NCBI RefSeq assembly: GCF_034263275.1
Contig: NZ_CP139559.1
Span: 3,534,001 to 3,598,000 of the forward strand
Direction: 5' to 3'
DNA: 64,000 nucleotides
From: Mucilaginibacter sp. cycad4
GTDB lineage: Bacteria > Bacteroidota > Bacteroidia > Sphingobacteriales > Sphingobacteriaceae
Each line of letters begins with the position of its first letter. The stretch's first letter is position 1. Made by a program: the position numbers and the translations under genes. The notes under the pieces are model-generated. The model saw nothing but the letters and a program-made list of their open reading frames with translations, did no database searches and was not told the origin of the DNA. This document shows positions 37,242 through 54,751 of the stretch, in pieces.

Positions 37242-38021
37242 TTAATTTACAGGGGTATTTTTTGATTTTAAATTTTGGATCATCATTTGCAGGCCCTGCC
37301 TGGTTTCGGGTGCCCACCATTGCTTCAGCATTTTGTTCAAGGTATCGGTCTGATCGGCCTTTAATTTGCCTGTGAGCTCCTTACGTAAATTCAATTTACT
37401 CTCCGTCCAGGTAACAGGATTCAGTTTCATATAAGCTGTAACCTTTTCTACTGCCGCGTTCATTAACTTATCCGGGGAGGAAATCTCATCGATCAGCCCG
37501 GCGTCCAGCGCTTCGTCTACTTTCAGGAGCTTACCCTCCATTAAATATTGATAAGCCTTACGCTGGCCAAGCCAGAATGCATACAGACTAAACACACTAT
37601 CAGGAACGATGATCCCTACTGGTACTTCATTTAACCCGATGATGAATGTTCCCGCTGCCATTACCCGGTAGTCGCAGCAAATGGCTAATATACAGCCCCC
37701 GGCCGGACTGTGCCCGCTTATCGCCGCTACTATTGGCTTCCTGAAAGCTGCTAAAGTGCTTTGCAGGGCCAAAAAATCTATCCAAAACTGGCGGCTTTGC
37801 TCTTCGTTATAATCATAAGCCTCAATCAGGTCGATCCCCGAGGAGAAAAAGCCTTCCTTCCCGGTTAAAATAACTCCTCCTACATTATCATCATTCTCCA
37901 GCGTTTTTATACAGGCATCCAGTTCCTTAACCATTTCGTGGTTGATGGCATTTGACCGTCCCCTGTCGAGCGTAATTGTAACCAATTTGCCCTGTATGGT
38001 TGTTTGAAATGTATTCATCAA
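37242..38021 (-). CDS. Crotonase-family protein, probable delta3,delta2-enoyl-CoA isomerase
   Basis: A 259-residue crotonase fold protein. The oxyanion-hole motif SGHSPAGGCILAICCDYRVM (about 102-121) and IGLNEVPVGIIVP (E132) match mitochondrial enoyl-CoA isomerase ECI1 better than hydratases: only one of the two hydratase Glu positions is present and it sits in GLNE. It would move cis-3 double bonds to trans-2 during breakdown of unsaturated acids. It abuts the acyl-CoA synthetase gene and precedes the dienoyl-CoA reductase gene. A plain enoyl-CoA hydratase remains possible. Confidence 0.75.
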   Translation of the reverse strand: MMNTFQTTIQGKLVTITLDRGRSNAINHEMVKELDACIKTLENDDNVGGVILTGKEGFFSSGIDLIEAYDYNEEQSRQFWIDFLALQSTLAAFRKPIVAAISGHSPAGGCILAICCDYRVMAAGTFIIGLNEVPVGIIVPDSVFSLYAFWLGQRKAYQYLMEGKLLKVDEALDAGLIDEISSPDKLMNAAVEKVTAYMKLNPVTWTESKLNLRKELTGKLKADQTDTLNKMLKQWWAPETRQGLQMMIQNLKSKNTPVN

Positions 38022-39866: not shown

Positions 39867-41042
39867 CTATAACAGTTCAAATACACCCGCTGCGCCTTGC
39901 CCGGTGCCTACACACATGGTAACCATGCCATACTTTTTTTCGCGCCTTTTCAATTCGTTAAAAAGCTGAACAGAAAGTTTGGCCCCGGTGCAGCCAAGCG
40001 GATGCCCAAGCGATATGGCGCCGCCGTTTACATTTACAATGTCGGGGTTAAGCTCCAGGCCTTTTATTATGGCCAATGATTGTGAAGCAAAGGCTTCATT
40101 CAATTCTATCAACTCTATGTCCTGCTGCTTCATCCCGGCCATTTTTAACACTTTGGGAATGGCTACCAGCGGACCTATCCCCATGATCCGGGGCGGTACA
40201 CCTGCAACGGCATAATTAACCAGCCGGGCAATGGGTTTAAGGTTATTTTCTTTCAAAAAGCGTTCGCTAACTACCATTACAAAGGCTGCCCCGTCACTGG
40301 TTTGCGACGAGTTGCCGGCAGTCACCACGCCTTTTGCATCAAATACAGGTTTAAGCTTAGCCAATGCTTCAATTGAGGTATCGCTGCGCGGACCTTCATC
40401 TGTATCAACCTTAAATTCCCGTTTCTTTTTTTTGCCGCTCTCATCGACATAAGTCTCCACGATATTTACCGGTGCTATTTCCTCTTTAAACTTGCCCTCC
40501 TTAATGGCGCTGATGGCTTTTTGATGCGAGTTATAAGCAAACTGGTCCTGCTCTTCGCGGCTGATATGATATTCCCTGGCAACAGCTTCGGCGGTGAGGC
40601 CCATGCCCCAGTAATAATCTGGATGAGCAAGGGCAATATCGGCGTTAGGAACAATGCGCCATCCCCCCATCGGGATCAGGCTCATACTTTCCACCCCACC
40701 CGCAATAATGCAATCAGCAATGCCGCTGTGTATTTTTGCCGACGCGATGGCTATTGTTTCGAGGCCCGATGAACAATAGCGGTTTACCGTCATGCCGGGA
40801 ACCTTGTCCGTATCAAGCGCCATTAACGAAATGAGCCGGGCTACATTCAATCCCTGTTCGGCTTCGGGCGTAGCGTTGCCTACTATCACATCGTCTATCT
40901 GCTCTTTATCAACGTTGGGCACCGATGCCAGCAGATGCCTGATAACATCTGCCGCAAGCGTATCCGGACGGGTAAACCTGAACCCGCCCCGGGTAGCTTT
41001 TCCAACAGCGCTGCGGCTGGCTGCCACTATATATGCGTTCAT
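39867..41042 (-). CDS. fadA: Acetyl-CoA C-acyltransferase (3-ketoacyl-CoA thiolase)
   Basis: A 391-residue thiolase that cleaves 3-ketoacyl-CoA in the last beta-oxidation step. Nucleophile Cys C90 in VNRYCSSGLETIA, the GGAISLGHPLGCTGAKL motif with the catalytic His near 350, and the C-terminal CVGTGQGAAGVFE with the second active Cys near 380. It follows the FadN-type gene by 28 bp, the same pair as fadN-fadA in Bacillus. Confidence 0.95.
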   Translation of the reverse strand: MNAYIVAASRSAVGKATRGGFRFTRPDTLAADVIRHLLASVPNVDKEQIDDVIVGNATPEAEQGLNVARLISLMALDTDKVPGMTVNRYCSSGLETIAIASAKIHSGIADCIIAGGVESMSLIPMGGWRIVPNADIALAHPDYYWGMGLTAEAVAREYHISREEQDQFAYNSHQKAISAIKEGKFKEEIAPVNIVETYVDESGKKKKREFKVDTDEGPRSDTSIEALAKLKPVFDAKGVVTAGNSSQTSDGAAFVMVVSERFLKENNLKPIARLVNYAVAGVPPRIMGIGPLVAIPKVLKMAGMKQQDIELIELNEAFASQSLAIIKGLELNPDIVNVNGGAISLGHPLGCTGAKLSVQLFNELKRREKKYGMVTMCVGTGQGAAGVFELL

Positions 41043-41070: not shown

Positions 41071-43452
41071 TTAGTTCCTTAACACTTTTCCGCCGGTTAA
41101 AATAGATTGGATCCGTTCAAGCGTTTTCTTTTCGGTGCAAAGCGAAACAAAGGCTTCACGTTCCAGCCCCAGCAAATATTCCTCGCTCACCATTGAGGGC
41201 TGGGACAGATCGCCCCCCGAAAGCACATAAGCCAGTTTCTGCGAGATCTTTACATCATGCTCGCTGATGTAATTACCGCTGTACATGGTATTGGCACCTA
41301 CGTAACCCAGGCCCAGCGCCTGCTTGCCCAGCACCCTGATATCACCGCGCGGAATAGGTTGTATGTACCCTTCATTTGCCATTTGCAGGCACTGTTGTTT
41401 AGCTTCGGCGAGTAACCTGTCGCGGGATACCACGACTACGTCCCTGCCTTTTTTGAGGTAGCCAAATTCAAAAGCCTCATAGGCCGACGTTGATACTTTG
41501 GCCTGGCCGATGGTTAAAAAACGGTCGCGGAAATTATTGAGTTCAACATCGCCTTCCTGCAGTTCGTCTGAAAGGCGCAGGGCAAACTCTTTCGTTCCTC
41601 CGCCTCCCGGTATCAAACCAACACCAAACTCAACCAGGCCCATATATAGTTCGGCATGCGCTACCACTTTATCGGCGTGCAGGCACATTTCGCAGCCGCC
41701 GCCCAAAGCCATTTGATGAGGCGCTATCACCACCGGAACAGACGAGTAGCGGATCCGCATCATCGTATTCTGAAAGGCCTTGATTACCATATTCAGCTCG
41801 TCGAACTCCTGCTCAACGGCCATCATAAATATCATACCCACATTGGCCCCGGCGCTGAAATTAGCACCCTCGTTTGAGATAACGAGCCCTTTGTGACTTG
41901 CTTCGGCAAGGGTGATGGCTTTATTGATGCCCTCTATTACCTCGCCGCCTATCGTATTCATTTTGGTATGAAACTCCAGGTTCAGGATGCCATCGCCAAT
42001 ATCGGTAATGGTAGTACCGCTGTTTTCCCACACCGTATTTGTTTCCCGGATATTATTGAGCAAGATAAGCCCTTCCGTACCCGGAATTACCTTGTAGCTT
42101 TTCGATTGGATATCATAATACAGGCGTTTGCCATCCTCTACTTTGTAGAAGCTCTTTGCTCCCGCCGCAAGCATGTCGTAAACCCATTGAGCCGGTTTAT
42201 TCCCGGCAGCTTCCATGGCTTTTACCGTATCTTCAACACCAAGCGCGTCCCATTTTTCAAAGGGGCCCAGTTCCCAACCAAAACCGGCGTTGGTGGCAGC
42301 ATCTATTTTATAAAGTTCGTCGGCTATTTCAGGGATGCGGTTACTGGCATAAGCAAATAACTGGTAAAAGGTGCTGCGGTAAAAATCGCCGGCTTTGTCT
42401 TTTGCCGCAATCAGGATTCTGAGCCTTTCTTTCAGGTTATCAACCGCTTTTGTAGTTTCAAGCGATGCAAATTTTACCTTTTGAGAAGGTTTGTATTCAA
42501 GCGTTTTCAGGTCAAGCGCATAAAACTGGTTTCCTCCTTCACCTTTTTCCTTTTTATAAAATCCCTGACCGGTTTTGCTGCCCAGCCAGTTATTTTTCAC
42601 CATCCCATCTACAAATTCAGGGATCTTGAATAACTCCCTGGCCTCATCATCAGGAGCGTTTTGGTAAAGCCCGTTAGCAACGTGCACCATGGTATCCAGC
42701 CCCACCACATCATTGGTGCGGAATGTGGCCGATTTAGGGTGACCTATCACGGGGCCAGTCAACTTATCAACCTCTTCAACAGTCATACCGGTTTGCTGTA
42801 CATAATGCAACACGCTCATGATGCTAAACACACCGATACGGTTGCCTATGAACGCAGGGGTATCTTTGGCTAACACCGTGGTTTTGCCCAGGTACTTTGT
42901 GCCATATTCCATCAAAAAATCAATGACGCCTGCCTGTGTATCTTTTGTGGGGATGATCTCCAAAAGTTTTAAATATCGCGGCGGGTTAAAGAAATGGCTG
43001 CCGCAAAAATGTTTTTTAAAGTCATCGCTCCTGCCTTCGGCCATTAAATGTATCGGGATCCCGGATGTGTTTGAAGTGATGAGCGTTCCGGGTTTTCTGA
43101 ATTTCTCTACAGTTTCAAACACCTGCTGCTTAATGTCCAGCCGTTCAACCACTACCTCTATCACCCAGTCGCAATCCGCAATTTTGGGCATATCATCTTC
43201 AAAATTGCCGGTTGTAATACGTTTTGCAAACGATTTGAGATAGATGGGCGAAGGGTTTGATTTCAGAGCAAAATCCAGCGCGTCATTCACAATTTTGTTC
43301 CGCGCTTTCTTATCTGCCGGCGGGGCATCCTTGGGTACAATATCAAGCAACAGTACCTGTACGCCGACATTTGCAAAATGGCAGGCGATACGACTGCCCA
43401 TTACTCCCGACCCCAATACTGCAACCTTTTTTATAATTCGTTTAGCATCCAT
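41071..43452 (-). CDS. fadN: Bifunctional 3-hydroxyacyl-CoA dehydrogenase/enoyl-CoA hydratase (FadN type)
   Basis: A 793-residue multifunctional enzyme. The NAD-binding Rossmann site AVLGSGVMGSRIACHFA is at about 12-28, followed by the hydroxyacyl-CoA dehydrogenase C-terminal domains (FIGNRIGVFSIM, then VDKLTGPVIGHPKSATFRTND). The crotonase-type hydratase module is C-terminal (about 480-760: QMALGGGCEMCLHADKVV, then GVGLIPGGGGTKEFALR). This order, dehydrogenase first, is that of B. subtilis FadN and not of E. coli FadB. It heads the fadN-fadA-synthetase-isomerase-reductase run. Confidence 0.92.
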   Translation of the reverse strand: MDAKRIIKKVAVLGSGVMGSRIACHFANVGVQVLLLDIVPKDAPPADKKARNKIVNDALDFALKSNPSPIYLKSFAKRITTGNFEDDMPKIADCDWVIEVVVERLDIKQQVFETVEKFRKPGTLITSNTSGIPIHLMAEGRSDDFKKHFCGSHFFNPPRYLKLLEIIPTKDTQAGVIDFLMEYGTKYLGKTTVLAKDTPAFIGNRIGVFSIMSVLHYVQQTGMTVEEVDKLTGPVIGHPKSATFRTNDVVGLDTMVHVANGLYQNAPDDEARELFKIPEFVDGMVKNNWLGSKTGQGFYKKEKGEGGNQFYALDLKTLEYKPSQKVKFASLETTKAVDNLKERLRILIAAKDKAGDFYRSTFYQLFAYASNRIPEIADELYKIDAATNAGFGWELGPFEKWDALGVEDTVKAMEAAGNKPAQWVYDMLAAGAKSFYKVEDGKRLYYDIQSKSYKVIPGTEGLILLNNIRETNTVWENSGTTITDIGDGILNLEFHTKMNTIGGEVIEGINKAITLAEASHKGLVISNEGANFSAGANVGMIFMMAVEQEFDELNMVIKAFQNTMMRIRYSSVPVVIAPHQMALGGGCEMCLHADKVVAHAELYMGLVEFGVGLIPGGGGTKEFALRLSDELQEGDVELNNFRDRFLTIGQAKVSTSAYEAFEFGYLKKGRDVVVVSRDRLLAEAKQQCLQMANEGYIQPIPRGDIRVLGKQALGLGYVGANTMYSGNYISEHDVKISQKLAYVLSGGDLSQPSMVSEEYLLGLEREAFVSLCTEKKTLERIQSILTGGKVLRN

Positions 43453-43483: not shown

Positions 43484-43936
43484 TTATTCGGCCCGCGACC
43501 AGGTTGTTGTACGCCCGAAAAGCGAAATACCGATGTATCCGCGGATATCCAAGGTTTCACCTTTGTAGGTCATTTTGCAGGAGTACGTTTTACCGTTATT
43601 AGGGTCATAAATTGTTCCGCCCGAATATTTGTTATCGCCGTCTTTTACAAAATCGGCCAATACAGGTAAACCCAGCCTCGGTCTGGAGCGTAGTTTTTCA
43701 TCGGTATTCATTTCGTCGACCTTAGGCTTCCCGTTTTTTAAGGGTTCCTTAAGCCATACCACCTTACCATAAAACTTGCCGTTGCTTTCCTTAGTGATCT
43801 GGATTTTGGCACTCTTTACATCATTGTACCATAAGCCTTCAATTTTATCGGTTTGCGCTTTTGCGTTGATACTTACAGCTACAACCGTTAGCAGGATTAA
43901 TGCAAAACGGACGAAATGTTTTTTTGATACTGACAT
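43484..43936 (-). CDS. DUF2147 exported protein
   Basis: A 150-residue exported protein with a signal peptide (HFVRFALILLTVVAVSINAKAQ, cleavage near 28). The mature part starts DKIEGLWYNDVKSAKIQI and ends KGETLDIRGYIGISLFGRTTTWSRAE, the DUF2147 pattern of a small beta-barrel, found widely in Proteobacteria and Bacteroidota. Function unknown. It lies 31 bp before fadN on the same strand, so it may be co-transcribed with the beta-oxidation genes. Confidence 0.85.
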   Translation of the reverse strand: MSVSKKHFVRFALILLTVVAVSINAKAQTDKIEGLWYNDVKSAKIQITKESNGKFYGKVVWLKEPLKNGKPKVDEMNTDEKLRSRPRLGLPVLADFVKDGDNKYSGGTIYDPNNGKTYSCKMTYKGETLDIRGYIGISLFGRTTTWSRAE

Positions 43937-44185
43937 TGCCTTAGGTGTTTTTTATAATTAAAAACAGCTCTTTTTTAAAGCAGGTACATGCTTTTCAGAT
44001 TTTACCGAATAGTAAGATCCGGCATCAGAAGCCTTCTAAAAAAGAGACAGGTAGAATTATAAAATGGTTAAATAATTTAGTCCCGGCATAATTACCGGGC
44101 GGTTTATAATAACAAATATCTATTTCTGCAGCGCTTTATAAAGGTCTAAACGGCGGAAACATTTGTCAATATTTCGGAATTAAAT

Positions 44186-44455
44186 TTAGCTGGTTTTATT
44201 TGATAATTGCGCTACAAGCCGGATATATTGCTGCATGGCATCATCGGCAGTAGTGCCTTTCTGTTTTAACCATGCGTCATACTTTGCTTTAGCCACAAAA
44301 TCAAACATACCCGGAGGGTTTTCTGTATTAATATCACCTTCCGTTGCCTGTTTGTATAAACTGTACAGGCGTAATAATGTTTCATTATCAGGCTTTGAAG
44401 GCAATTCTTTACTCTCTTTAACTGCTTTTTCAAAAGCATCATTCAGGTCGGTCAT
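44186..44455 (-). CDS. Acyl-CoA-binding protein (ACBP)
   Basis: An 89-residue four-helix acyl-CoA-binding protein. [16 protein letters not shown] begins helix 1, [15 protein letters not shown] is the family core with the Tyr and Lys that hold the CoA, and [22 protein letters not shown] completes helices 3-4. It buffers and delivers long-chain acyl-CoA in the cytoplasm. ACBPs are mainly eukaryotic but occur in Bacteroidota. It sits inside the beta-oxidation cluster, with 249 bp to DUF2147. Confidence 0.93.
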
Positions 44456-44628
44456 AGATAAATTATTTAAAAGCTAAAAGCAGAAGGTTTAAAGCTTAAA
44501 GCTGATTAATTAGTTTCGGTTAATTGTTATATTAAATTATTTCAGGTTGGATTGGCCTCTTCAACATAGCTTAGCCGTTAACTTAAGCAATTAATTGTAT
44601 AAAGATTTTAAAATCCCCTTTTGAGAGG

Positions 44629-44868
44629 GCTACTGTGTGTACACATCTTTTAAATTCTATCAATAATTGAAAAAAATGTCATTTCGAACGAACCTGGTGG
44701 AAGAATTAGCGCGCAGGGGGGTGAGGAGAAATCTTCTACGCCCTGCTTTTATAAGTATGATTGTAGAGCCTGATGTAGAAGATTTCTCTTTCGCCCCACT
44801 TCTTAGCCCGCCCCTGCTCAATCGAAATGACATTTTCTTTTATATAATACTTGTGTACACACTGTAGC
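44629..44868. mobile_element. MITE-like element with gctac(t/a)gtgtgtacaca ends
   Basis: 240 bp with 17-bp terminal inverted repeats (gctactgtgtgtacaca at 44629-44645; inverse at 44852-44868, one mismatch) and an 8-bp direct repeat ttgagagg on both sides (44621-44628, 44869-44876). Inside is a second perfect 15-bp inverted repeat (44673-44687 and 44822-44836, with tgtcatttcga) and a third (agaaatcttctac / gtagaagatttct). No transposase. An ORF reading across it is taken as chance. Confidence 0.75.
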
Positions 44869-44963
44869 TTGAGAGGGCGCGCGGAGGCACGAGTGATGGC
44901 AGGGGTGTGTTTCTGCTACAGGCTTATCAAAGCAGAAACACACCCCTCCACCCCTCTTGAGAG

Positions 44964-45157
44964 CAGGGCTGTTGCATTCTAATTTATGTTTCGCAAGTTC
45001 AAGCGTCCTTCGCTTGAATTATAACCAAAGTAAGCGTCCACGCTTACGTTTATAACATATTACGGGAGCGTGGACGCTCAATTAAGGCAAACGACCAAGC
45101 GTAGACGCTTAATCGTGCGTGTTATTAAGAACTGAATATTAGAATGCAACGGCCCTG
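44964..45157. mobile_element. MITE sharing the ends of the ISAs1-family IS
   Basis: 194 bp with terminal inverted repeats cagggctgttgcattctaa (44964-44982) and its inverse with one mismatch (45139-45157), the same ends as the IS at 47640-48802. The flanks are also identical to those of that IS: cccctcttgagag on the left and ctctcaagagggg on the right. It carries four small hairpins in place of a transposase: 44998-45018, 45030-45047, 45066-45079 and 45097-45110. Confidence 0.8.
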
Positions 45158-45203
45158 CTCTCAAGAGGGGAATCGCGCAATCCCGCGCTTTTTTCCCCTT
45201 AAG

Positions 45204-45641
45204 TTAACTGCCCTCTTCAACGTAATCGCTGCTGCGGGGCGCTTTCATAAACATTTCGCTTAGCGCTGCAGGTAATACCGCGAGTTTGCGTTTTTCCATA
45301 TCTATCCATGAACCCTCGGCATTTATTATCGCAGCTTTAACCCCATCGCCCCGGTACAGCTCGTGCCTGATTGCCCAGCGCGAACCATCAGGCCGGGATT
45401 TGATCAGCTCGCATGTTACTTTTACCTGCTCGTTAATCCCAATCTCGCGCAGGTAGATCAACTCTTCCCTGAATAATACAGGTCCTATTTTGTATTCATA
45501 AAGTGTAGGCAGCTTTAAGCCCAGGCTTTCAAGCATGGTGATACGCGCCTGTGCTGCAAGATCGGCATAGGCGGAGTGCCGCATGTGCTGGTTCGAGTCT
45601 ATCTGCGACCACAGCACCTGTCCTTCATAAAAAAACTCCAT
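45204..45641 (-). CDS. Hotdog-fold acyl-CoA thioesterase (4HBT type)
   Basis: A 145-residue single hotdog-domain protein. The 4HBT motif WSQIDSNQHMRHSAYADLA carries the catalytic Asp D15. The central strand pattern EELIYLREIGINEQVKVTCEL and GSRWAIRHELYRG fits YbgC/FadM-like thioesterases. It would hydrolyse acyl-CoA, perhaps to relieve CoA trapping. Start 13 bp downstream of etfA. The last codons (DYVEEGS) and the stop lie in the arm of dispersed repeat copy B, so the native C-terminus may have been replaced. Confidence 0.88.
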   Translation of the reverse strand: MEFFYEGQVLWSQIDSNQHMRHSAYADLAAQARITMLESLGLKLPTLYEYKIGPVLFREELIYLREIGINEQVKVTCELIKSRPDGSRWAIRHELYRGDGVKAAIINAEGSWIDMEKRKLAVLPAALSEMFMKAPRSSDYVEEGS

Positions 45642-45654
45642 AGCCTTGATTATT

Positions 45655-46632
45655 TTATTGATGATGTTCCTTAAATTTTTTGACTGCGGCTGTCAGCTTC
45701 GGTAAAATCTCCATTGCATCACCCACAACACCATAATTGGCTGCTTTAAAAAATGGGGCTTCGGGATCTTTATTGATCACTACAATAGTTTTTGAACCGT
45801 TAACCCCTGCCAGGTGCTGGATAGCCCCGGAGATCCCCACCGCGATATACAGGTTTGGGCGAACGGTGCCGCCTGTTTGCCCCACATGCTCATGATGCGG
45901 CCTCCAGTGCGAATCGGCCACCGGGCGCGAGCAGGCCGTAGCGGCACCCAACTCTTTTGCCAGGTCCTCCAGTATGCCCCAATTTTCAGGGCCTTTCAAA
46001 CCTCTACCTCCCGAAACAACCAGCTCGGCATCAGCAAGTGGTACCTCGCCAACTACTTTGTTCACCGATTTCACTTTTACGCCGAAATCGTTTTCGCTAA
46101 AAGTAATACCCAGCTGCTCAACAACTGCTTTACCCTCCAGCTTTTGAAGTGGAAAGGTGTTAGGCATCAGCATAATTACTTTTACCTCACTTACAATGTT
46201 TACATAGGCAAACGCTTTGCCCGAAAACACGGCCTTTTTAATCACAAAGCCTTTGTCTGTATCAGGATATGAAAGCGCTCCGGCTACCAGGCCAGCTTGT
46301 AACTTTACAGCCACCCGCGGGGCGACTGCCCTGCCTTTAACATCATGAAGGGTTACAATTATTTTACTATTCTCCTTTTGCGCTGCGGCTATTAATGCGC
46401 CGGCATAGGCCCTTGAATGCAGTTCGTCCAATCGGCCATCAGCAACGCGCAGCACTTTTTGCGCACCATACTGACCAAGGTTTTCCATTTCGGCAGCGGT
46501 AACGCTTCCTAAAGCAAGTGCGGTTACCGTAGTATCCATTTTTTGGGCTATTTGCGCGGCATATTGCACTGCTTCAAAGCTTTGTTTTTTTATAATTCCT
46601 CCGGTATGTTCTACCAATACTATTACAGACAT
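45655..46632 (-). CDS. etfA: Electron transfer flavoprotein subunit alpha
   Basis: A 325-residue ETF alpha chain that accepts electrons from acyl-CoA dehydrogenase through FAD. The C-terminal FAD domain has [13 protein letters not shown], then [19 protein letters not shown] and [20 protein letters not shown] with [20 protein letters not shown], the family signature. The N-terminal ETF domain spans about 1-180. It is 146 bp after etfB; the gap contains a near-perfect 22-bp palindrome at 46696-46717 built on attccctccc. Confidence 0.96.
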
Positions 46633-46778: not shown

Positions 46779-47522
46779 TTAAATAACCTTAGCTTCCGTA
46801 TGCAACAGTTGCACCAGTTCATCCAGGTTGTCCGGGTTTACCAGTTTGATACCCGACTTGGCAGGCGGTAACTCGTAGGACAATATTTCGGTTACAGCAG
46901 TTATTCCTGAAGGCGTAATAACCTTTAACGGACGGGTACGGGCAGCCATTATCCCGCGCATATTGGGGATCCGGGCTTCGGCCACACCTTTTTGGCAGGA
47001 AATTACTACCGGCAAATTACAGGCATCTGTTTCTTCGCCGCCTTCAATTTCACGTGTTACCACAGCAGTATTGGCCTCTATGCTGATCCCGGTTGCAAAA
47101 CCAATGTAATCGAGATCAAGCAATTCGGCCAGCATGGCGCCTGTAGTTCCGTTATTGTAATCGATAGATTCTTTGCCACATAAGATGAGATCATAGCCAA
47201 CCCCGGCAGCATATCCAGCTATATAATGAGCGATTTCATAAGGGTCGTTGCTCTCTGCATCGATGCGGATGGCTTCATCGCCACCCAACGCCAGCGCTTT
47301 CCTGATCACGGGCTCAACATCGGCCCTGCCCACAGTTACCAGGTGAACATCGGTGGCTATACCGTTTTCTTTTAATTCGATAGCTTTGATCAACGCATAC
47401 CATTCATCGTACGGGTTGATCACCCAGGTAACACCATCACTGTTAACCGAGGTATTATTATTTTTCAATACAATTTTGGTGCTCGTGTCCGGCACCTGGC
47501 TTATGCACACTAATATTTTCAT
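46779..47522 (-). CDS. etfB: Electron transfer flavoprotein subunit beta
   Basis: A 247-residue ETF beta chain. It begins KILVCISQVPDTSTKIVLKN, followed by NPYDEWYALIKAIELKENG, the AMP-binding region LILCGKESIDYNNGTTGAMLAELL, and the signature VTREIEGGEETDACNLPVVISCQKGVAEARIPNM at about 153-186. It pairs with etfA downstream. An ISAs1-family IS separates it from the acyl-CoA dehydrogenase gene, so it may now depend on its own promoter. Confidence 0.96.
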   Translation of the reverse strand: MKILVCISQVPDTSTKIVLKNNNTSVNSDGVTWVINPYDEWYALIKAIELKENGIATDVHLVTVGRADVEPVIRKALALGGDEAIRIDAESNDPYEIAHYIAGYAAGVGYDLILCGKESIDYNNGTTGAMLAELLDLDYIGFATGISIEANTAVVTREIEGGEETDACNLPVVISCQKGVAEARIPNMRGIMAARTRPLKVITPSGITAVTEILSYELPPAKSGIKLVNPDNLDELVQLLHTEAKVI

Positions 47523-47639
47523 TATCAGAATTTTGTTTTTTTAGGTTGATATTATTTAGGGAAATGAAGACTCCATGCCGCTATTATCGTTAACACAAGG
47601 AGTAAAAAGCGTGGGCTTGTGCGATTCCCCTCTTGAGAG

Positions 47640-48802
47640 CAGGGCTGTTGCATTCTAATTTAATAGTTGTTTCAACCTGTTGATATCGTTGCAAACAAGC
47701 CTTTGCGCTTGTGCGAGGTTTGGGTAATCATTTATTCTAAATACATTAATAACTATGTTTCTGAACACAGAAGTATTTTCAGGCGCATTGGATGTTCTAA
47801 TTCGTGAAGCGTCTTCGTTAAATGTCACGTCCTTTACCCAATGAAGACTGTTTTCTATACTCCAATGGCTTTTAATACCATGGCAGAATATTTGCGCATT
47901 ACCGATTAAGCTACTGATGAAAAAGGCGTATTCTTCCCGGATACGTCCTTTTTCTTTTACCCAGCGATGCACTTTAATAAGTTGGCTTACCCCAGCCCAT
48001 GTGTTACTGATTTCCTCTGTTCCCGGGTACACCCAAACTGTTCTACGTTCTATTCGCCCTTTGTTTTTCAACAACTCAACAAACTTACTACAAACCATTG
48101 CCTCGTCCGATGTAATGGTTTCGATCTTTTTGTAAAGGTTCTTTTGATTCTTCTTCACACCTATTATATAATTGTTATCTGTATCAATAATAGCCTCTAC
48201 CGTTTTTTTTGACAATGTAATGCGTCAAGTGTAAACGTTACCCCCTGTAATCCTAAACTGGAAATAAGCTGCTGAACTACAGAGATTTCACTTTGTTTTG
48301 AGTTGTCAACTAAACCATGGCCAACGACTTGATTACTCCTGCTACTATACAAGCTTACCAGGCTTACAAATCGTTGTTTGTCAAGAGAATAATCGCTCAT
48401 CGTCCCTTTCATTGCCTTACCATCTATATGTAGCCATTCATTTTTAGACAAATCAATATGCTGACTGGCCCATTTATGGAAACTCTCATTTAAGCTGTTA
48501 AAGTCTAAATCTTGTATTACACGTCTTATAGTATAAAAGCTTGGAAGGCGGGCTTTATTAGGCTGAAAGAAGGCCAAAAGATCGACTTCATTCCGCTTTA
48601 TAAAATCACCCATCGAACGATAGCCATGATAACCGCTCATTGTACTCATTAACACAAGCAACAGAATGAAAGTCTGGTCATGGCGCTGGCCTGCCTTTCG
48701 CCTTATATCCGGTAACTCTGATAAATACGCTAATATGCTCTTATCCATCCTAACTTTTTTGACCTCAAGTTAACTTATAATATTTAGAATGCAACAGCCC
48801 TG
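47640..48802 (-). mobile_element. ISAs1-family insertion sequence
   Basis: 1163 bp with 19-bp perfect terminal inverted repeats cagggctgttgcattctaa (47640-47658) and inverse (48784-48802). The flanks cccctcttgagag and ctctcaagagggg continue the inverted repeat to 32 bp. CAGGG ends and the transposase type fit the ISAs1 family. It lies between the acyl-CoA dehydrogenase and etfB genes. Confidence 0.85.
47655..48748 (-). pseudogene. ISAs1-family transposase, frameshifted in a poly-A run
   Basis: The N-terminal part (from 48748, 183 residues: LSELPDIRRKAGQRHDQTF, then WLHIDGKAMKG with the first catalytic Asp, and FTLDALHCQKK with the second) stops just after the A run. The C-terminal part (to 47655) carries DNNYIIGVKKNQ and SHWSIENSLHWVKDVTFNEDASR with the expected Glu. 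The run is eight A on the coding strand (plus-strand T 48203-48210); nine A would restore QKKTVEAII. Polymerase or ribosome slippage could still make full protein, so inactivity is not certain. Confidence 0.85.
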
Positions 48803-48915
48803 CTCTCAAGAGGGGTGGAGGGGTGTGTTATTCTACGTGCGGCTTATTGCTTGTATAACACACCCCTGCCACCACTCGTTCCTTCGCGCCCCCTCTCAAG
48901 AGGGGATTAAAAAAG

Positions 48916-50712
48916 CTAAAAGCAATATCTATTTTCAGCGATGAGCTTTGCAGCAATATTTCTGCGTGCCTGGGTGGTATTGATGTCTTCTGTTTTGGTG
49001 AAACGCTTCAACCCCATCAGCATCATCCTTCTTTCGTCGCCTTCGGCAAATGAGTTTAGCGCCTCCTTGCCCGATTTGGCAATGTGTTCAGCAGCATCAT
49101 TGATGTACACCCGCATCATATCCAGTTGTTCTTTACAGGCATCTTCGCCCCTTAAACCAACCAGTTTCTCCACCCTCAACTGCAGCGATTCGCTCACATA
49201 AAGCTCAATCAGCATATCGGCCAGGTTCATCAATACTTCCTGCTCTTTGCTCAATTGCGTCATTAGTTTTTGAACAGCCGCACCGGCTACCATCAATATG
49301 GCCTTTTTAAAATTGGCTATGTATTTTTTCTCTTTGGTAAACAAGCCATCCTCTTCGGCTGCGCCAAAATCGGGGATGCTCATCAATTCACCCGCCACTT
49401 TCTGGGCCGGCCCCATCAGGTCGAGCTCGCCTTTCATGGCGCGTTTCAGCATCATGTCAACCGTTAACAAGCGGTTAATTTCGTTGGTACCCTCAAAGAT
49501 GCGGTTGATCCGTGAATCGCGGTACGACCTGTCCATCGGCGCCTCGGCGCTGTAGCCCATGCCACCGTAAATCTGTACACCTTCATCGGTTACATAATCC
49601 AAAACTTCCGATGCGTGAACTTTAAGGATCGCCGCTTCTATTGCGTATTGCTCAGTCCCTTTTAATTTGGCTTTGGTTTCATCAAGGCCGGATGCTATTA
49701 ACATTTCTGTAGCCTCCTCCATATTCTGACTGGCACGGTACACCGCCGATTCCGCGGCATAGGTACGGATAGCCTGCTCAGCCAGTTTATATTTTATCGC
49801 TCCGTATTTGGAAATAGCCCGACCGAACTGTTCCCGTTCATTGGCGTAACGTACCGATGAGGTGATCACATCCTTACTTGCGCCAACTGTGCCGCCTCCT
49901 AATTTAATGCGGCCAAGATTCAGTATATTAACGGCTATCTTAAAACCATTCTGCCGTTCGGAAAGCAGGTTTTCAACCGGCACTTTGCAATCGTTAAAAA
50001 ATACCTGGCGGGTTGAGCTGCCCTTGATCCCCATTTTGTGTTCTTCCGTATTGAGAGAAAGTCCCTCAAAATCCTTTTCAACAATAAATGCGCTCAGGTT
50101 TTCATCATCGTCTATCTTGGCGAAAACGGTAAACACATCTGCGAAACCCGCGTTGGTAATCCACATTTTTTGCCCGGTGATGAGATAATGTTTGCCATCG
50201 GCCGAAAGCTTTGCCCTGGTTTTACCCGAATTGGCATCCGAACCCGCAGCAGGCTCTGTAAGGCAATAAGCCCCTTTCCACTCACCGCTTGCCAGCTTAG
50301 GAATATATTTTTGTTTTTGGGCATCATTGCCATAGTATAATATAGGCATGGTTCCGATACCCGTATGTGCCGAAAAAGCAACGGAAAATGAGTGACCGGC
50401 ACCCAGCTTTTCAGTAACCAGCATGGCAGTTTTAAAATCCTTACCAAAACCGCCGTATTCTTCGGGCACGGAAATGCCTAACAATCCAAGTGCCCCTGCC
50501 TCGTCCATTAAATGACGCATTAATCCCTCCTCCTGTTCGTCAATGCGCTGCAAATTTGGGGTTACCTGCTGTGCCAAAAAATTGGTACATGTTTCGGCGA
50601 TCATCAACTGCTCTTCATTCCATTCTTCAGGAATAAAAACGCTATCGGCGGAAGTTTCCCTGATCAGAAACTCACCTCCTTTTATGGCTTTCATCGGTTC
50701 TGTGGCATTCAT
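48916..50712 (-). CDS. fadE: Acyl-CoA dehydrogenase (FadE type, long form)
   Basis: A 598-residue FAD enzyme for the first beta-oxidation step. ACAD signatures: WKGAYCLTEPAAGSDANSG (about 137-155), KMWITNAGFADVFTVFAK, and IYGGMGYSAEAPMDRSYRDS leading to RINRIFEGTNEINR with the catalytic Glu near 410. A further C-terminal domain of about 170 residues fits the long ACADs of Bacillus FadE and mitochondrial VLCAD/ACAD9. Electrons go to EtfAB encoded downstream, now behind an IS. Upstream lies a 29-bp element shared with the fadL-like gene. Confidence 0.94.
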   Translation of the reverse strand: MNATEPMKAIKGGEFLIRETSADSVFIPEEWNEEQLMIAETCTNFLAQQVTPNLQRIDEQEEGLMRHLMDEAGALGLLGISVPEEYGGFGKDFKTAMLVTEKLGAGHSFSVAFSAHTGIGTMPILYYGNDAQKQKYIPKLASGEWKGAYCLTEPAAGSDANSGKTRAKLSADGKHYLITGQKMWITNAGFADVFTVFAKIDDDENLSAFIVEKDFEGLSLNTEEHKMGIKGSSTRQVFFNDCKVPVENLLSERQNGFKIAVNILNLGRIKLGGGTVGASKDVITSSVRYANEREQFGRAISKYGAIKYKLAEQAIRTYAAESAVYRASQNMEEATEMLIASGLDETKAKLKGTEQYAIEAAILKVHASEVLDYVTDEGVQIYGGMGYSAEAPMDRSYRDSRINRIFEGTNEINRLLTVDMMLKRAMKGELDLMGPAQKVAGELMSIPDFGAAEEDGLFTKEKKYIANFKKAILMVAGAAVQKLMTQLSKEQEVLMNLADMLIELYVSESLQLRVEKLVGLRGEDACKEQLDMMRVYINDAAEHIAKSGKEALNSFAEGDERRMMLMGLKRFTKTEDINTTQARRNIAAKLIAENRYCF

Positions 50713-50739
50713 AAAGTTTTATTGGTTTATAATCAAGGG

Positions 50740-50747
50740 TAAAATTA
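50740..50747 (-). promoter_or_regulatory. Promoter -7-like box for the acyl-CoA dehydrogenase gene
   Basis: TAATTTTA on the minus strand, close to the Bacteroidota -7 consensus TAnnTTTG, 27 bp upstream of the start codon and 30 bp past the shared 29-bp element. The fadL-like gene has the same octamer 29 bp past its own copy of the element. Confidence 0.45.
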
Positions 50748-50777
50748 GAGGCATTATCAAGCCAAAGAAAGGGCAGC

Positions 50778-50806
50778 AATGCGGAGATATTAGTCAAAAA
50801 GTCGGA
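50778..50806 (-). promoter_or_regulatory. Conserved 29-bp operator-like element, copy 1 (before fadE)
   Basis: Read on the minus strand it begins tccgactttttgactaatat and ends ctccgcatt. It is identical over 29 bp to 52061-52089, with the same direction relative to the downstream gene. A further gccctttNttt match follows after 3 bp in both copies. It starts 66 bp upstream of the start codon. Probable binding site for the AraC-type protein encoded at 51085-51972. Confidence 0.7.
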
Positions 50807-50912
50807 AATGTCTGGAGTGATGGATGGCGTGAGGTGATAATGGTAGAAGTGTTTGACGACACAAAAAATATCATTAAGAGGAGGAGCGGCGCTATGACAT
50901 ATAAAAATTAAA

Positions 50913-51011
50913 GTCATGCTGAACTTGTTTCAGCACCCCACTCACTAAGCAACCATGCTAAGCAAAGCGGTCTACCTGTCCTATGGGATGCCGAAATAAA
51001 TTCGGCATGAC
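50913..51011. repeat. Dispersed gtcatgctgaacttg repeat, copy 1
   Basis: Starts gtcatgctgaacttgtttca and ends with the hairpin tgccgaaataaattcggca then tgac, giving outer arms gtcatgc/gcatgac. A second copy sharing the first 28 bases is at 60912-61004. It lies between the fadE and araC genes; the 50713-51084 gap holds only this, the operator and promoter boxes. Confidence 0.65.
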
Positions 51012-51084
51012 AAGGGTATGTCACTTTCCTTCGGAGGCCGCTGATTTTACGCACTAATAACACGTTTTGGTTTCCTTTAACCAA

Positions 51085-51972
51085 TCAATGCGCCGATATC
51101 GCCCTATAATCAGAGGGCGACATACCGGTATGTTTTTTGAAATATTTGCCAAATGACGATTGATCAGGGAAATGGATACTTTCGGCGGCCCGCGCTATGC
51201 TTATCTCATGGTTTCTCAGCAATACCTTGGCTTCCAGTATTACGGCATCGTCTATCCATTCGCCTGCGGTTCTCCCGGTTACTTCCTTAATGGTTTCGGT
51301 TAAATGTTTGGGAGATACATACAGCGCATCGGCATAATACTGCACGCTGCGGTGTTCTTTGTAATGATGGAAAATGAGGGACTGGAAAAGCACGTTCAGT
51401 TCCTGTTTCCTGGTTTGTTTACCTTTTATTATGAGGTGTTGCTTTTCGTAAATAGCCTGTATTTCATAAAGCAGTGTCATTAAAATGCTCCTGGATATTT
51501 CAACATCGTAAGGGTGACCTTCCCTTGCTAATTTTCGCTGGATCAGTAAATAAATCTCCAGTATCATTTTCGCATCGGCATTGCCCGGATAAATTACAGG
51601 GATAGATGCGCTATTGAAATAACTGAATGATTCAAGGAAATGGCTGTTGGCATTATTTTCGATTAAAAAAGCTTTGCTGAAAACAACAAACCGGCATAAA
51701 AAATCGGCACTGCTATCGTAGATCCTTAAAACATGAAAAGGGGTTGCCAGAAGCATGGCATCCGGCCGGGCATCATAGATCTGCAGGTTTACTTCAACCT
51801 TGGCTGTGCCCCGGGTACAAATGCCTATAATATAACCATCCGAACGATAAGGATATTCGCTCAAGCTCAATAATTGCTTTTCGTCAACAACAAAAAAATC
51901 GGCACCAGCCAGCTTGTCTGCATACAGATCTGCAAATTTCGACAGGCTTAATTGTCCAACTTTATTATTCAT
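51085..51972 (-). CDS. AraC-family transcriptional regulator
   Basis: A 295-residue regulator. The N-terminal half (about 1-170) is a cupin-like effector domain (YIIGICTRGTAKVEVNLQ). The C-terminal pair of helix-turn-helix motifs spans about 190-292: HRSVQYYADALYVSPKHLTETI, followed by GRTAGEWIDDAVILEAKVLL, and AAESIHFPDQSSFGKYFKKHTGMSPSDYR, the AraC signature. It sits between two copies of an identical 29-bp element: one before fadE, the other in the divergent region to the fadL-like gene. It is the natural candidate to control both. The effector is unknown; a fatty acid or acyl-CoA is a guess. Confidence 0.93.
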   Translation of the reverse strand: MNNKVGQLSLSKFADLYADKLAGADFFVVDEKQLLSLSEYPYRSDGYIIGICTRGTAKVEVNLQIYDARPDAMLLATPFHVLRIYDSSADFLCRFVVFSKAFLIENNANSHFLESFSYFNSASIPVIYPGNADAKMILEIYLLIQRKLAREGHPYDVEISRSILMTLLYEIQAIYEKQHLIIKGKQTRKQELNVLFQSLIFHHYKEHRSVQYYADALYVSPKHLTETIKEVTGRTAGEWIDDAVILEAKVLLRNHEISIARAAESIHFPDQSSFGKYFKKHTGMSPSDYRAISAH

Positions 51973-52060
51973 ATAGTTTCGATATTATAATTTAACTATT
52001 GTATTTATTAAAGACGGTTGTAAAGCAATTTTTCTTATCTGATATTAAAAATAAGCTTTA

Positions 52061-52089
52061 TCCGACTTTTTGACTAATATCTCCGCATT
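52061..52089 (+). promoter_or_regulatory. Conserved 29-bp operator-like element, copy 2 (before the fadL-like gene)
   Basis: Identical to 50778-50806 in inverse genome orientation, so it reads the same way toward its own gene. It starts 128 bp upstream of the fadL-like ATG and lies 88 bp upstream of araC, in the shared divergent intergenic region. It is followed after 3 bp by gccctttttttc, as in copy 1. Confidence 0.7.
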
Positions 52090-52118
52090 ATAGCCCTTTT
52101 TTTCTTTTTAATCCAAAC

Positions 52119-52126
52119 TAATTTTA
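52119..52126 (+). promoter_or_regulatory. Promoter -7-like box for the fadL-like gene
   Basis: TAATTTTA followed by tccc, the same octamer as before fadE, 29 bp past operator copy 2 and 62 bp before the start codon. Confidence 0.45.
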
Positions 52127-52188
52127 TCCCTGACAGTTTCAAATTGTAACCTACAAGCAATTTCCTGTCACGAACCAATTATATTTTT

Positions 52189-53412
52189 ATGAGAAAAATT
52201 CTACTATTGGTGCTCACCGCAGCACCGCTGTTAGCTTTTTCCCAGGGTTTCCAGGTGAACCTGGGGGGGCAAAAGCAAATAGGAATGGGCCATACAGGTA
52301 CGGGGATCGTGCAGGATGGCGCTTCCGTATTTTTTAACCCGGGCGCAGTGGCTATGCTGTCCGAAAATTACATACAGGGCGGGATAAGCCCCTTATTGTT
52401 CAAATCTGTTTTCAATCCTGCCGGAACATCAATACAAAACCATACTTCCGATAAAGTTGCTACTCCGTTCCATGCTTATGCGGTATGGGGGCCCAAATCG
52501 TCCTTCTGGAAACTGGGGATTGGCGTTTATACCCCTTTTGGCGGTTTAACCGACTGGGGCAATACCTGGCAAGGCAAATATGTGCTGGAAAGCCTCGACC
52601 TGAAAGCCATTTATATTCAGCCAACACTAAGTATAAAACTGGCCGACTGGATGAGCATTGGCGGAGGCTTCGTTTACAACCATGGCAGCGTTGATTTGAC
52701 GCGGGCCATTCCACTTGCCAACAGCAACGGTGAAGCAGGCCAGGCCCGGTTGAAAGGCAGCGGCAAAGGCTATGGATGGAATGCGGGCGTTTACTTCAAA
52801 ACAGAGGCGGGCATTACCATAGGCATCACACACCGGTCGCAGGTAAATACCACAATTTCGGGAGGGAATGCTATTTTTAAAGTACCGGCATCGCTGCAAA
52901 GCAGCTTTCCGCAACCTAATACTTTTAGCTCAACCATACCGCTGCCGGCCACTAATTCCATCGGTTTCGGCTTTTACCCCAGTAGCAAATGGATATTGGC
53001 CATGGATGTTAACCTGGTTAACTGGGATAGTTATAAAACCCTATCGTTTGATTATAAAAACAATACGGCTGTATTACAGGATACCCACTCTGCCCGGAAT
53101 TACCAGCAGGCATTTAGCTTACGCGGAGGCGCTCAATATAAGGCTGCCGATAAACTGGCCCTGCGCTTTGGCGGCGGCTATGGCGGTACCGCTGTTTTGG
53201 ATGGTTATGTAACTCCTGAAGTTCCGGACGCCAACAGGGTTTATGGTACCCTGGGCTTAGGTTATACCGTAGCCAAACACCTCGATATAGATATCTCCTT
53301 TGAGTATGAGCACCTGATGCAGCGTACCCAAACCAATATCGAATCGCAGCTATCGGGCACATTTAAAACCGATGTTTATATACCAGGTATCTCAGTGGCT
53401 TATCATTGGTAA
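52189..53412 (+). CDS. FadL/OmpP1/TodX-family outer-membrane hydrophobic-compound transporter
   Basis: A 407-residue outer-membrane barrel with a signal peptide (ILLLVLTAAPLLAFSQ, cleavage near 19). The mature N-terminus GFQVNLGGQKQIGMGHTGTGIVQDGASVFFNPGAVAML is the FadL hatch region, with NPG in place of the usual NPA. Alternating strands to the C-terminal DVYIPGISVAYHW, ending in an aromatic residue, support a barrel. It would bring long-chain fatty acids across the outer membrane. The GDSL lipase lipoprotein gene follows by 19 bp, and the shared operator element links it to fadE. Confidence 0.92.
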   Translation: MRKILLLVLTAAPLLAFSQGFQVNLGGQKQIGMGHTGTGIVQDGASVFFNPGAVAMLSENYIQGGISPLLFKSVFNPAGTSIQNHTSDKVATPFHAYAVWGPKSSFWKLGIGVYTPFGGLTDWGNTWQGKYVLESLDLKAIYIQPTLSIKLADWMSIGGGFVYNHGSVDLTRAIPLANSNGEAGQARLKGSGKGYGWNAGVYFKTEAGITIGITHRSQVNTTISGGNAIFKVPASLQSSFPQPNTFSSTIPLPATNSIGFGFYPSSKWILAMDVNLVNWDSYKTLSFDYKNNTAVLQDTHSARNYQQAFSLRGGAQYKAADKLALRFGGGYGGTAVLDGYVTPEVPDANRVYGTLGLGYTVAKHLDIDISFEYEHLMQRTQTNIESQLSGTFKTDVYIPGISVAYHW

Positions 53413-53431: not shown

Positions 53432-54751
53432 ATGAAAACGTTTAAACACAATATTTATATTATTGCAGGGTTGCTGCTATTAGGCGCCTGCAAACCCGAA
53501 ATCCATACACCAAAACCATCCGCAGGCTCTGTTGATTTTTCACGGTTTATCTCGTTAGGTAATTCGCTTACCGCCGGGTATGCCGATGGGGGCTTATACC
53601 TTGCAGGTCAGCAGGTATCTTATCCCAGCATCATGGGTAAACAAATGCAGTCGGTTGGCGGGGGCGCATTTACACAGCCATTATTTAATACTGCCCAGGC
53701 AAACGGATCGGGCTATTTATCACTCACCGGGTTTAATGCTGATGGTACACCTATTACAACTCCTGTAACTACCAATCTCGCGGTACGCGGAAAACTTACA
53801 GTACCCGGCTTTGGAGATGTTACCCTGTACACCAAATATACCGGCGATATTAATAACTATGGTGTACCCGGCATTAAGCTGATGCACATCACTTATGCAC
53901 CCTATGGTAACGTTAACGGATATTTTGAACGCCTGCTGCCCGGTAATGCGCCAACAAATTCCACCACCTATCTTGATTTTGTTATGGCTAAGCCATTCAC
54001 CTTTTTCTCTAACTGGCTGGGGAATAATGATGCCTTAGGCTATGCCACATCCGGCGGGGCAGGCGATGTGCTGACAGATAAAAATACTTTTGCCGCCTTA
54101 TATAATGTATTGATCAACACCCTCACTGCCAAGGGGCAGAAAGGCGTGGTTGCAACCGTGCCCGATGTAACCTCGATACCTTATTTTAATACCATCACCG
54201 TTTCTGCAATACTGGCCGGTGTACAAAAAGCAAACCCGAATGCGAAGGCATTGTATATCAACGCGCTGGTTTCGGGTAGCACCTATGTACCTCGCGCAGC
54301 AACAACTAATGATCTTATCATACTTACCTTCCCGACAAGCAAGATCGGACAGCCGGTTGCAACACCTGTTGGCAACCTGCCTTATGGTTTAACGCCATAT
54401 ACCCCAATAGACAACCAGTATGTGCTTGATGAAAAAGAGACGGCCCTAACCGAGGATTATGTTACTTCTTATAACACCACCATAAAATCAATAGCAGCGG
54501 CAAAAGGTCTGGCGGTATTTGATGCTTATACTTTTCTGCAAAATATCAAACTGAATGGCCTGGTGGTTGACGGCGTAAGCGTTAATTCTAATTATATCAG
54601 CGGTGGCCTGTTCTCGCTGGATGGGGTACACCTCACCCCGCGCGGGTATGCTATTGTAGCCAATGAATTTATCAAAGCCATTAATGACAAATACAATTCA
54701 TCAATACCACAGGTAAATATATCTGATTATAATGGGGTTAAGTTTCCTTAG
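53432..54751 (+). CDS. GDSL/SGNH-family hydrolase lipoprotein
   Basis: A 439-residue lipoprotein (lipobox Cys C20, LLLGACKPE). SGNH blocks: S45 in SLGNSLTAGYADGG (block I), LGNNDALGY (block III, about 195-203), and FSLDGVHLTPRGYAIV (block V, Asp and His near residue 395). It is probably an outer-membrane esterase/lipase that frees fatty acids for the FadL-like porin encoded just before it; such porin-lipase pairs are common in Bacteroidota. Substrate not defined by sequence. Confidence 0.88.
   Translation: MKTFKHNIYIIAGLLLLGACKPEIHTPKPSAGSVDFSRFISLGNSLTAGYADGGLYLAGQQVSYPSIMGKQMQSVGGGAFTQPLFNTAQANGSGYLSLTGFNADGTPITTPVTTNLAVRGKLTVPGFGDVTLYTKYTGDINNYGVPGIKLMHITYAPYGNVNGYFERLLPGNAPTNSTTYLDFVMAKPFTFFSNWLGNNDALGYATSGGAGDVLTDKNTFAALYNVLINTLTAKGQKGVVATVPDVTSIPYFNTITVSAILAGVQKANPNAKALYINALVSGSTYVPRAATTNDLIILTFPTSKIGQPVATPVGNLPYGLTPYTPIDNQYVLDEKETALTEDYVTSYNTTIKSIAAAKGLAVFDAYTFLQNIKLNGLVVDGVSVNSNYISGGLFSLDGVHLTPRGYAIVANEFIKAINDKYNSSIPQVNISDYNGVKFP

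Follow-up and report, generated by a model that had tools for sequence, protein, structure and literature searches.

The product of the gene at 51085-51972, on the minus strand of the 64,000-nucleotide stretch of Mucilaginibacter sp. cycad4 DNA analysed here (the window), can with good confidence be regarded, from sequence comparison, as a local AraC-family activator of fatty-acid uptake and β-oxidation in Mucilaginibacter. The matching element that stands before fadL and fadE is very probably the docking site by which this neighbouring AraC-type regulator would switch the pathway on. A first-pass annotation had proposed a regulon in which AraC joins FadL/GDSL uptake to the first step of β-oxidation; this proposal is supported by the co-occurrence of gene and site, by a 21-bp direct repeat within the site and by variant sites beside AraC paralogues. 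By gene order, the regulon appears to be wider than proposed and would also take in etfBA, the thioesterase and ACBP genes, fadB, fadA, fadD and probably an enoyl-CoA hydratase gene.

The fad locus and its three sites

FadL, FadD, ACBP, FadE with EtfAB, FadB and FadA constitute the set of proteins for fatty-acid uptake and β-oxidation. The genes and predicted control elements of the locus are the following.

37242-38021, minus: enoyl-CoA hydratase, likely the last gene of the operon, adjoining fadD
38022-39836, minus: FadD acyl-CoA ligase
39867-41042, minus: FadA thiolase
41071-43452, minus: FadB, 3-hydroxyacyl-CoA dehydrogenase/enoyl-CoA hydratase
43484-43936, minus: DUF2147 protein, first gene past the third site
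44113-44120, minus: −7 box GATATTTG of the fadB operon promoter
44140-44178, minus: third predicted regulator site, TCCGAAATATTGACAAATGTTTCCGCCGTTTAGACCTTT, before DUF2147-fadB-fadA-fadD (profile E 1.3e-11)
44186-44455, minus: acyl-CoA-binding protein, ACBP (PF00887, 1.5e-31)
45204-45641, minus: thioesterase (4HBT_2)
45655-46632, minus: EtfA
46779-47522, minus: EtfB, electron-transfer flavoprotein subunit; an IS element separates etfB from fadE in this strain
48916-50712, minus: FadE acyl-CoA dehydrogenase (NCBIfam NF058590, above cut-off)
50740-50747, minus: −7 box TAATTTTA of the fadE promoter
50768-50806, minus: predicted regulator site before fadE, the 29-mer plus GCCCTTT (profile E 8.1e-15)
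51085-51972, minus: AraC-family regulator, 295 aa, C-terminal HTH_18; proposed activator
52061-52099, plus: predicted regulator site before fadL (profile E 1.4e-16)
52061-52077, plus: half-site 1 of the fadL site
52082-52099, plus: half-site 2 of the fadL site (TCCG...GCCCTTT)
52119-52126, plus: −7 box TAATTTTA of the fadL promoter (consensus TAnnTTTG)
52189-53412, plus: FadL/OMPP1 outer-membrane transporter (PF03349, 2e-45)
53432-54751, plus: GDSL lipase/esterase, likely cotranscribed with fadL (19-bp gap)

Pfam upheld the earlier gene calls, i.e., acyl-CoA dehydrogenase, HTH_18/AraC, OMPP1/FadL and GDSL. The AraC of an M. gossypii record (L207) is 99.7% identical, with a DNA identity of 87-94% over the locus.

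The two 29-bp copies that the first-pass annotation had placed at 50778-50806 (minus) and 52061-52089 (plus) are exact, and each is oriented toward its gene (C1:3584778, minus, and 3586061, plus, in genome coordinates). Also borne out are the similarity past the 29-mer, which continues as GCCCTTTnTTT after both copies, and the TAATTTTA octamers, which lie 29 and 30 bp beyond the 29-mers, at 52119-52126 (plus) and 50740-50747 (minus). Comparison of the relatives' loci revealed a third, diverged copy, TCCGAAATATTGACAAATGTTTCCGCCGT, at 44150-44178 (minus), which is absent from that annotation and sits between the ACBP gene and the run DUF2147-fadB-fadA-fadD-enoyl-CoA hydratase. At up to 3 mismatches, the first 20 bases of the 29-mer match twice in the window (mean of 0.02 in shuffles), and no further copy of them was found at this tolerance across the whole 7.11-Mb genome.

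Sites, conservation, spacing and AraC linkage were all computed. The profile used has 66 positions, is based on sequence only and was built from 49 of the 78 sites mapped in 30 genomes. Asked whether the element is a dispersed repeat, the 7.11-Mb genome returned only 3 strong profile matches, all upstream of fad genes: E values were 1.4e-16, 8.1e-15 and 1.3e-11 at the three fad promoters and 0.027 at the next place. Since the set of 49 includes the three window sites, part of their score is built in, and what counts is how far they stand from everything else in the genome. The pattern TCCGANNNNTTGACNAANNNNTCCGC likewise has exact matches genome-wide only at the three fad sites. At 3 mismatches, a reversed control pattern gave 39 matches vs. 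14 for the pattern itself, and therefore only the three exact matches were used. Two near matches, both absent among the profile hits, were taken as chance: one at 778267 (1 mismatch), in a 511-bp gap flanked by ORFs that are not recognisable by eye as fad genes, and one at 497282 (2 mismatches), inside a 393-aa open frame.

The identity of two copies over 29 bp might suggest a dispersed repeat or the product of a recent duplication, but the probability of this explanation is negligible. The genome holds only two such copies, the same two promoters keep their sites across species in which FadL is 63-94% identical while flanking columns carry at most 0.5 bit, and 24 of the 30 mapped genomes also have the third, diverged copy.

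The locus also contains mobile and repetitive DNA. An IS element (DDE_Tnp_1; overlapping ORFs of 186 and 183 aa) lies between fadE and etfB at window positions 47564-48857; two relatives (L056 and L207) align on both of its flanks and are without it. Because of this insertion, etfBA may be uncoupled from the fadE promoter in this strain. At least 17 near-complete genomic copies of the IS, this one included, share 99-100% identity. Its transposase, at 47655-48748, is split into 183- and 186-aa ORFs with a short overlap, and the same split in the one other copy inspected (L280:1553-2646) suggests a programmed frameshift rather than decay. Palindromic, repeat-rich intergenic DNA of the GGATGCCGAAATAAATTCGGCATGACA and GCAACAGCCCTGCTCTC types occupies 50900-51040 and 44600-45160, and short fragments resembling the GCAACAGCCCTGCTCTC-type DNA, beside the IS, are found at many places in the genome.

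Site architecture and the proposed mechanism

The element can be read as two direct half-sites, TCCGnnTTnnTGnC, 21 bp apart and at a near-fixed distance from a Bacteroidota −7 box. Numbered from the first T, TCCG occupies positions 1-4 and 22-25, TTGAC 10-14, CCTTT 35-39 and the TTT of the −7 box 63-65. Over the 78 sites, the best-conserved site columns reach 1.9-2.0 bits and the TTT columns of the −7 box 1.8-2.0 bits, with at most 0.5 bit in the columns upstream and between site and −7 box. The spacing from site to TTT is nearly constant (many fadE sites are 1 base longer), and no conserved TTG −33 element was found in these 78 sites apart from CCTTT. Self-similarity of the profile is maximal at a shift of 21 columns (z 3.69; best of 25 shifts, a value reached by none of 2000 column shuffles). 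Among the inverted arrangements tried, a partial dyad scored best (z 3.2), and because of it the direct-repeat reading is favoured, not proved. A direct repeat of ~21 bp is typical of AraC-family sites, and the predicted layout is that of an AraC-type activator.

A scan of 50700-52300 for E. coli-type sigma-70 promoters was uninformative (5 found vs. 4.9 expected), and the Bacteroidota −7 box was adopted instead. The TAnnTTTG box of Flavobacterium psychrophilum occupies −12 to −5 (PMC9723704). If this position is transferred, half-site 1, and with it the site, would start at approx. −70, the second TCCG would lie at −49 to −46, and CCTTT would lie at −36 to −32, over the −33 region.

In the mechanism that we propose, AraC would bind the ~39-bp site through its two direct half-sites of 21-bp period at three target promoters, namely those of fadL-GDSL, of fadE-etfBA-thioesterase-ACBP, and of DUF2147-fadB-fadA-fadD and possibly the enoyl-CoA hydratase gene. 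In the presence of fatty acid or acyl-CoA, bound AraC would make up for the absent −33 contact and bring in RNA polymerase. Acting at three promoters, such an AraC-type activator would raise the uptake and β-oxidation set together. Here, it is binding, activation over repression, the operon limits, the transcription starts and the inducer that we infer.

It is improbable that AraC binds as a repressor that fatty acid or acyl-CoA would free: AraC-family members are mostly activators, and the site does not cover the −7 box but extends from further upstream as far as the presumed −33 region. Also in line with a promoter that needs help, its distance to the −7 box hardly varies and a conserved TTG −33 element is lacking. 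Nonetheless, the site is near the promoter, and such classical FadR logic has a precedent in E. coli, where FadR represses the fad genes (PMC5343134 and PMC9329746).

Distribution of gene and site among relatives

The mapped set comprises 30 genomes with an AraC orthologue (71-100% identity), i.e., the window, the loci of 21 relatives and 8 loci from a family sample. The question of whether the element is conserved near orthologues was answered by 78 sites in these 30 genomes: 26 before fadL, 28 before fadE or etfB and 24 before the fadB operon. Wherever fadL is contained in the fetched stretch the site is present (25/25); the 26th fadL-type site, in L071, is at a contig end, and this locus (G015, an incomplete genome) has no queried fad gene after araC within the 11.9 kb present. 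Three loci (L073, L076 and L222) are cut by contig ends, and two (L070 and L075) are without fadL in the stretch. The site is equally constant where fadE or etfB follows araC (28/28). In six loci (L072, L074, L221, L224, L226 and L228), etfB leads the operon and fadE is found behind fadA, and there the site stands before etfB. No fadB site was found in L070, L075 and L225, where fadB comes straight after fadE or after the thioesterase gene. The site thus tracks promoters, which is the prediction for an operator. It should be noted that the 78 sites were gathered at the locus and that three weak ones were accepted by position, two before etfB in the etfB-leading loci L074 and L221 (4 mismatches each) and one before fadL in L222 (3 mismatches); two of these three are among the 49 sites of the profile. 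In a separate observation, the AraC match of G077 (L076:1896-2246) covers only residues 180-295 although ~1.4 kb of contig is left on the 5' side, and the fadE site is kept; this is either a broken araC or a misassembly.

Among 100 relatives, 61 of them of the genus (own genome included), an AraC homologue at E ≤1e-30 occurs in 34 and an orthologue (≥72% identity) in 22, that of G077 being only partial, and all 22 have the site beside it (≤2 mismatches). Of the 78 relatives without the orthologue, four (G005, G008, G044 and G063) have one match each, inside stop-to-stop frames of 347-688 codons. With the reversed pattern as control, 13 matches were obtained in 12 of the 100 genomes, so these four stray matches are at chance level, as are, by the same control, single extra off-locus matches with 2 mismatches in G018 and G029. 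In the family sample of 201, AraC is present in 13 genomes and the site in all 13, at ≤1 mismatch in 10 and more weakly in three (G034, G101 and G126, best 2 to 3 mismatches). Scanned for the exact consensus, an 84,980-species collection returned 57 stretches, all titled Mucilaginibacter, Sphingobacteriaceae or Bacteroidetes. The pathway itself is commoner than AraC and site, since 59 of the 100 relatives have FadB. However, AraC, sites and targets form one linked locus, and the co-occurrence is therefore partly due to common descent.

Evidence from outside the linked locus comes from paralogues. When the 100 relatives were searched with the profile, three more clear matches appeared (G025, 2.8e-9; G082, 9.6e-7; and G081, 6.2e-6), all in genomes without the orthologue. 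Variant sites, none of which had been used in building the profile, have E values of 9e-11 to 3e-7 in three fetched loci. Each lies 9-193 bp past the 3' end of a divergent AraC gene and before a run of efflux-type ORFs, with ungapped spacing to the TTT box. The AraC paralogues concerned are 32-33% identical overall, 16-20% in the N-terminal part and 56-57% in the HTH. In L266, the run after the site encodes, by Pfam, a cupin (Pirin_C_2), an outer-membrane efflux protein, HlyD and MFS; L267 and L268 are alike by eye. Since divergent paralogues have variant sites before an efflux operon, the site type seems to follow AraC-family genes and not lipid genes. The sharing of an AraC-family gene and a site in the absence of fad genes is the best evidence that the AraC protein would read the site. 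These AraC/efflux modules (L266:7343-13115, L267:4366-10380 and L268:7937-13725) have the operator layout of the fad locus, and genes for cytochrome oxidase, globin and oxidoreductase lie next to them (Pfam assignments from L266 only).

The three efflux loci had been fetched for their profile match; ten other AraC-homologue loci, chosen by AraC similarity, contain no strong site, and only L269 has a partial one (E 0.24). Because the HTHs of L269, L270 and L271 are equally similar (57, 61 and 60% identity) and these loci are without a strong site, HTH identity alone does not predict the site. A looser pattern picked out a faint remnant just after araC in L271 (10 of 27 positions off) and fainter ones in L277 and L278 (9 and 10 off), but chance matches as good occur elsewhere in other loci and position alone is in their favour. 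In the latter two, the faint related sequence, TTTCGACGAAC ... AAATTTGTCC, is seen at L277:9086 and L278:8927, just past the 3' end of two more AraC paralogues, hinting that in this AraC group an operator may commonly lie right behind araC.

The genus also contains four fad clusters that lack AraC (L230-L233). No site was found in these four, the 5-mismatch matches in L232 and L233 being inside fadE; three further genomes with FadB and without the AraC orthologue (G005, G012 and G082) were left out of the negatives because of contig ends close to fadB. Each of the four AraC-lacking clusters has a MarR gene between fadD and fadB (e.g., L231:8355-8789, minus), and none was found in the 31 other loci searched. 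The MarR-family gene is a possible alternative fad regulator in the genus, and there is an apparent MarR-to-AraC exchange at the same pathway.

These distributions also bear on whether another factor (e.g., MarR, TetR or an alternative sigma factor) reads the element, with araC being a mere neighbour. Linkage could yield the co-occurrence, the partial dyad is present, and the −7 and CCTTT elements could by themselves simply belong to the promoter. Such a factor is nevertheless very unlikely, given that the variant sites adjoin divergent AraC paralogues before an efflux operon, that the MarR gene is confined to the site-lacking fad clusters (4 of 35 loci searched), and that the ~21-bp direct repeat is of the kind found at AraC-family sites, that of SphR among them.

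The regulator, its inducer and known systems

By its C-terminal double HTH (PF12833, 2.1e-20; PF00165, 7.6e-12), the product of 51085-51972 belongs to the AraC/XylS family; the locus-linked regulator, the only one considered here, is HTH_18/AraC and not GntR or TetR. The N-terminus has no Pfam match, and in a low-confidence model (pLDDT 63.6) it appears as seven short strands followed by helices. Only the C-terminal part matches solved sequences, the best match of the HTH being 2k9s. When the whole model was submitted to Foldseek, ToxT and several Rns entries, some of them fatty-acid-bound, were the best matches over the whole model length, but with a TM of ~0.46 at best and at this low model confidence no membership is claimed. 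The highest target TM among the matches listed (0.68) belongs to a RhaR domain, and AraC was also matched. A ligand derived from the fold search was rejected in view of the weak model and the few full-length AraC-family templates; as the model is weak and the RhaR domain tops the target TM, no ligand is claimed.

Judged from the target genes, the inducer is most likely fatty acid or acyl-CoA. FadL-family proteins carry many hydrophobic compounds, a GDSL gene adjoins fadL in all 25 fetched loci containing fadL, and the N-terminal domains of the paralogues diverge freely. An AraC activator responding to something other than long-chain fatty acid, such as an alkane, a wax ester, a branched-chain acid or a plant lipid, would accommodate these facts and overlaps with our main reading, differing only in the inducer; it is a possibility of some weight, yet a doubtful one, since the targets form the full β-oxidation set with FadD and ACBP. 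In a reading that is also tentative and that we rate slightly above that alternative, the AraC N-terminal domain may itself sense a long-chain fatty acid or acyl-CoA, much as ToxT, Rns or SphR would, and the protein may act as an activator-type master switch of β-oxidation that replaced MarR within one genus, with the same HTH-and-site module controlling efflux operons under other sensor domains.

The araI1/araI2 layout at araBAD consists of direct repeats with the proximal site at the −35 region. The predicted fad system resembles this case of class II activation in the AraC-like HTH, in direct repeats of ~21 bp and, should the Flavobacterium box position apply, in a proximal half-site that would reach the same region, whereas nothing at the fad locus suggests a sugar ligand or DNA looping. 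The nearest working analogue, by description, is SphR of Pseudomonas aeruginosa, a sphingosine sensor of the AraC family that is needed for induction (PMC3900636). There, too, an AraC-type regulator is divergent from a predicted porin gene (sphA), a few lipid-use promoters are controlled, and two direct-repeat half-sites are present, the 15-bp half-site and 6-8-bp gap giving a period of 21-23 bp. However, SphR differs in consensus (TGNCCSNNRNNSNCC), in ligand and in its targets, which are sphingosine genes and not core β-oxidation, and no orthology is claimed. FadR, PsrA and FadP have the same role, coordinated control of fatty-acid degradation, but FadR is a GntR and PsrA and FadP are TetR regulators of Proteobacteria (PMC5343134 and PMC9329746), whereas here an AraC-family regulator with a direct-repeat site is predicted in Sphingobacteriaceae.

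For Proteobacteria, it is well described how GntR and TetR regulators control fatty-acid degradation. In the open-licence literature searched, we found no description of an AraC-type β-oxidation regulator in Bacteroidota, nor of a fad regulator for Sphingobacteriaceae. The locus offers a precise, testable regulon of one predicted regulator, a 39-bp operator and three promoters. With the operator and the promoter spacing defined this closely, they could be tried as an inducible expression tool in Bacteroidota. The MarR-to-AraC exchange, if true, would be a clean case of regulator replacement at one pathway.
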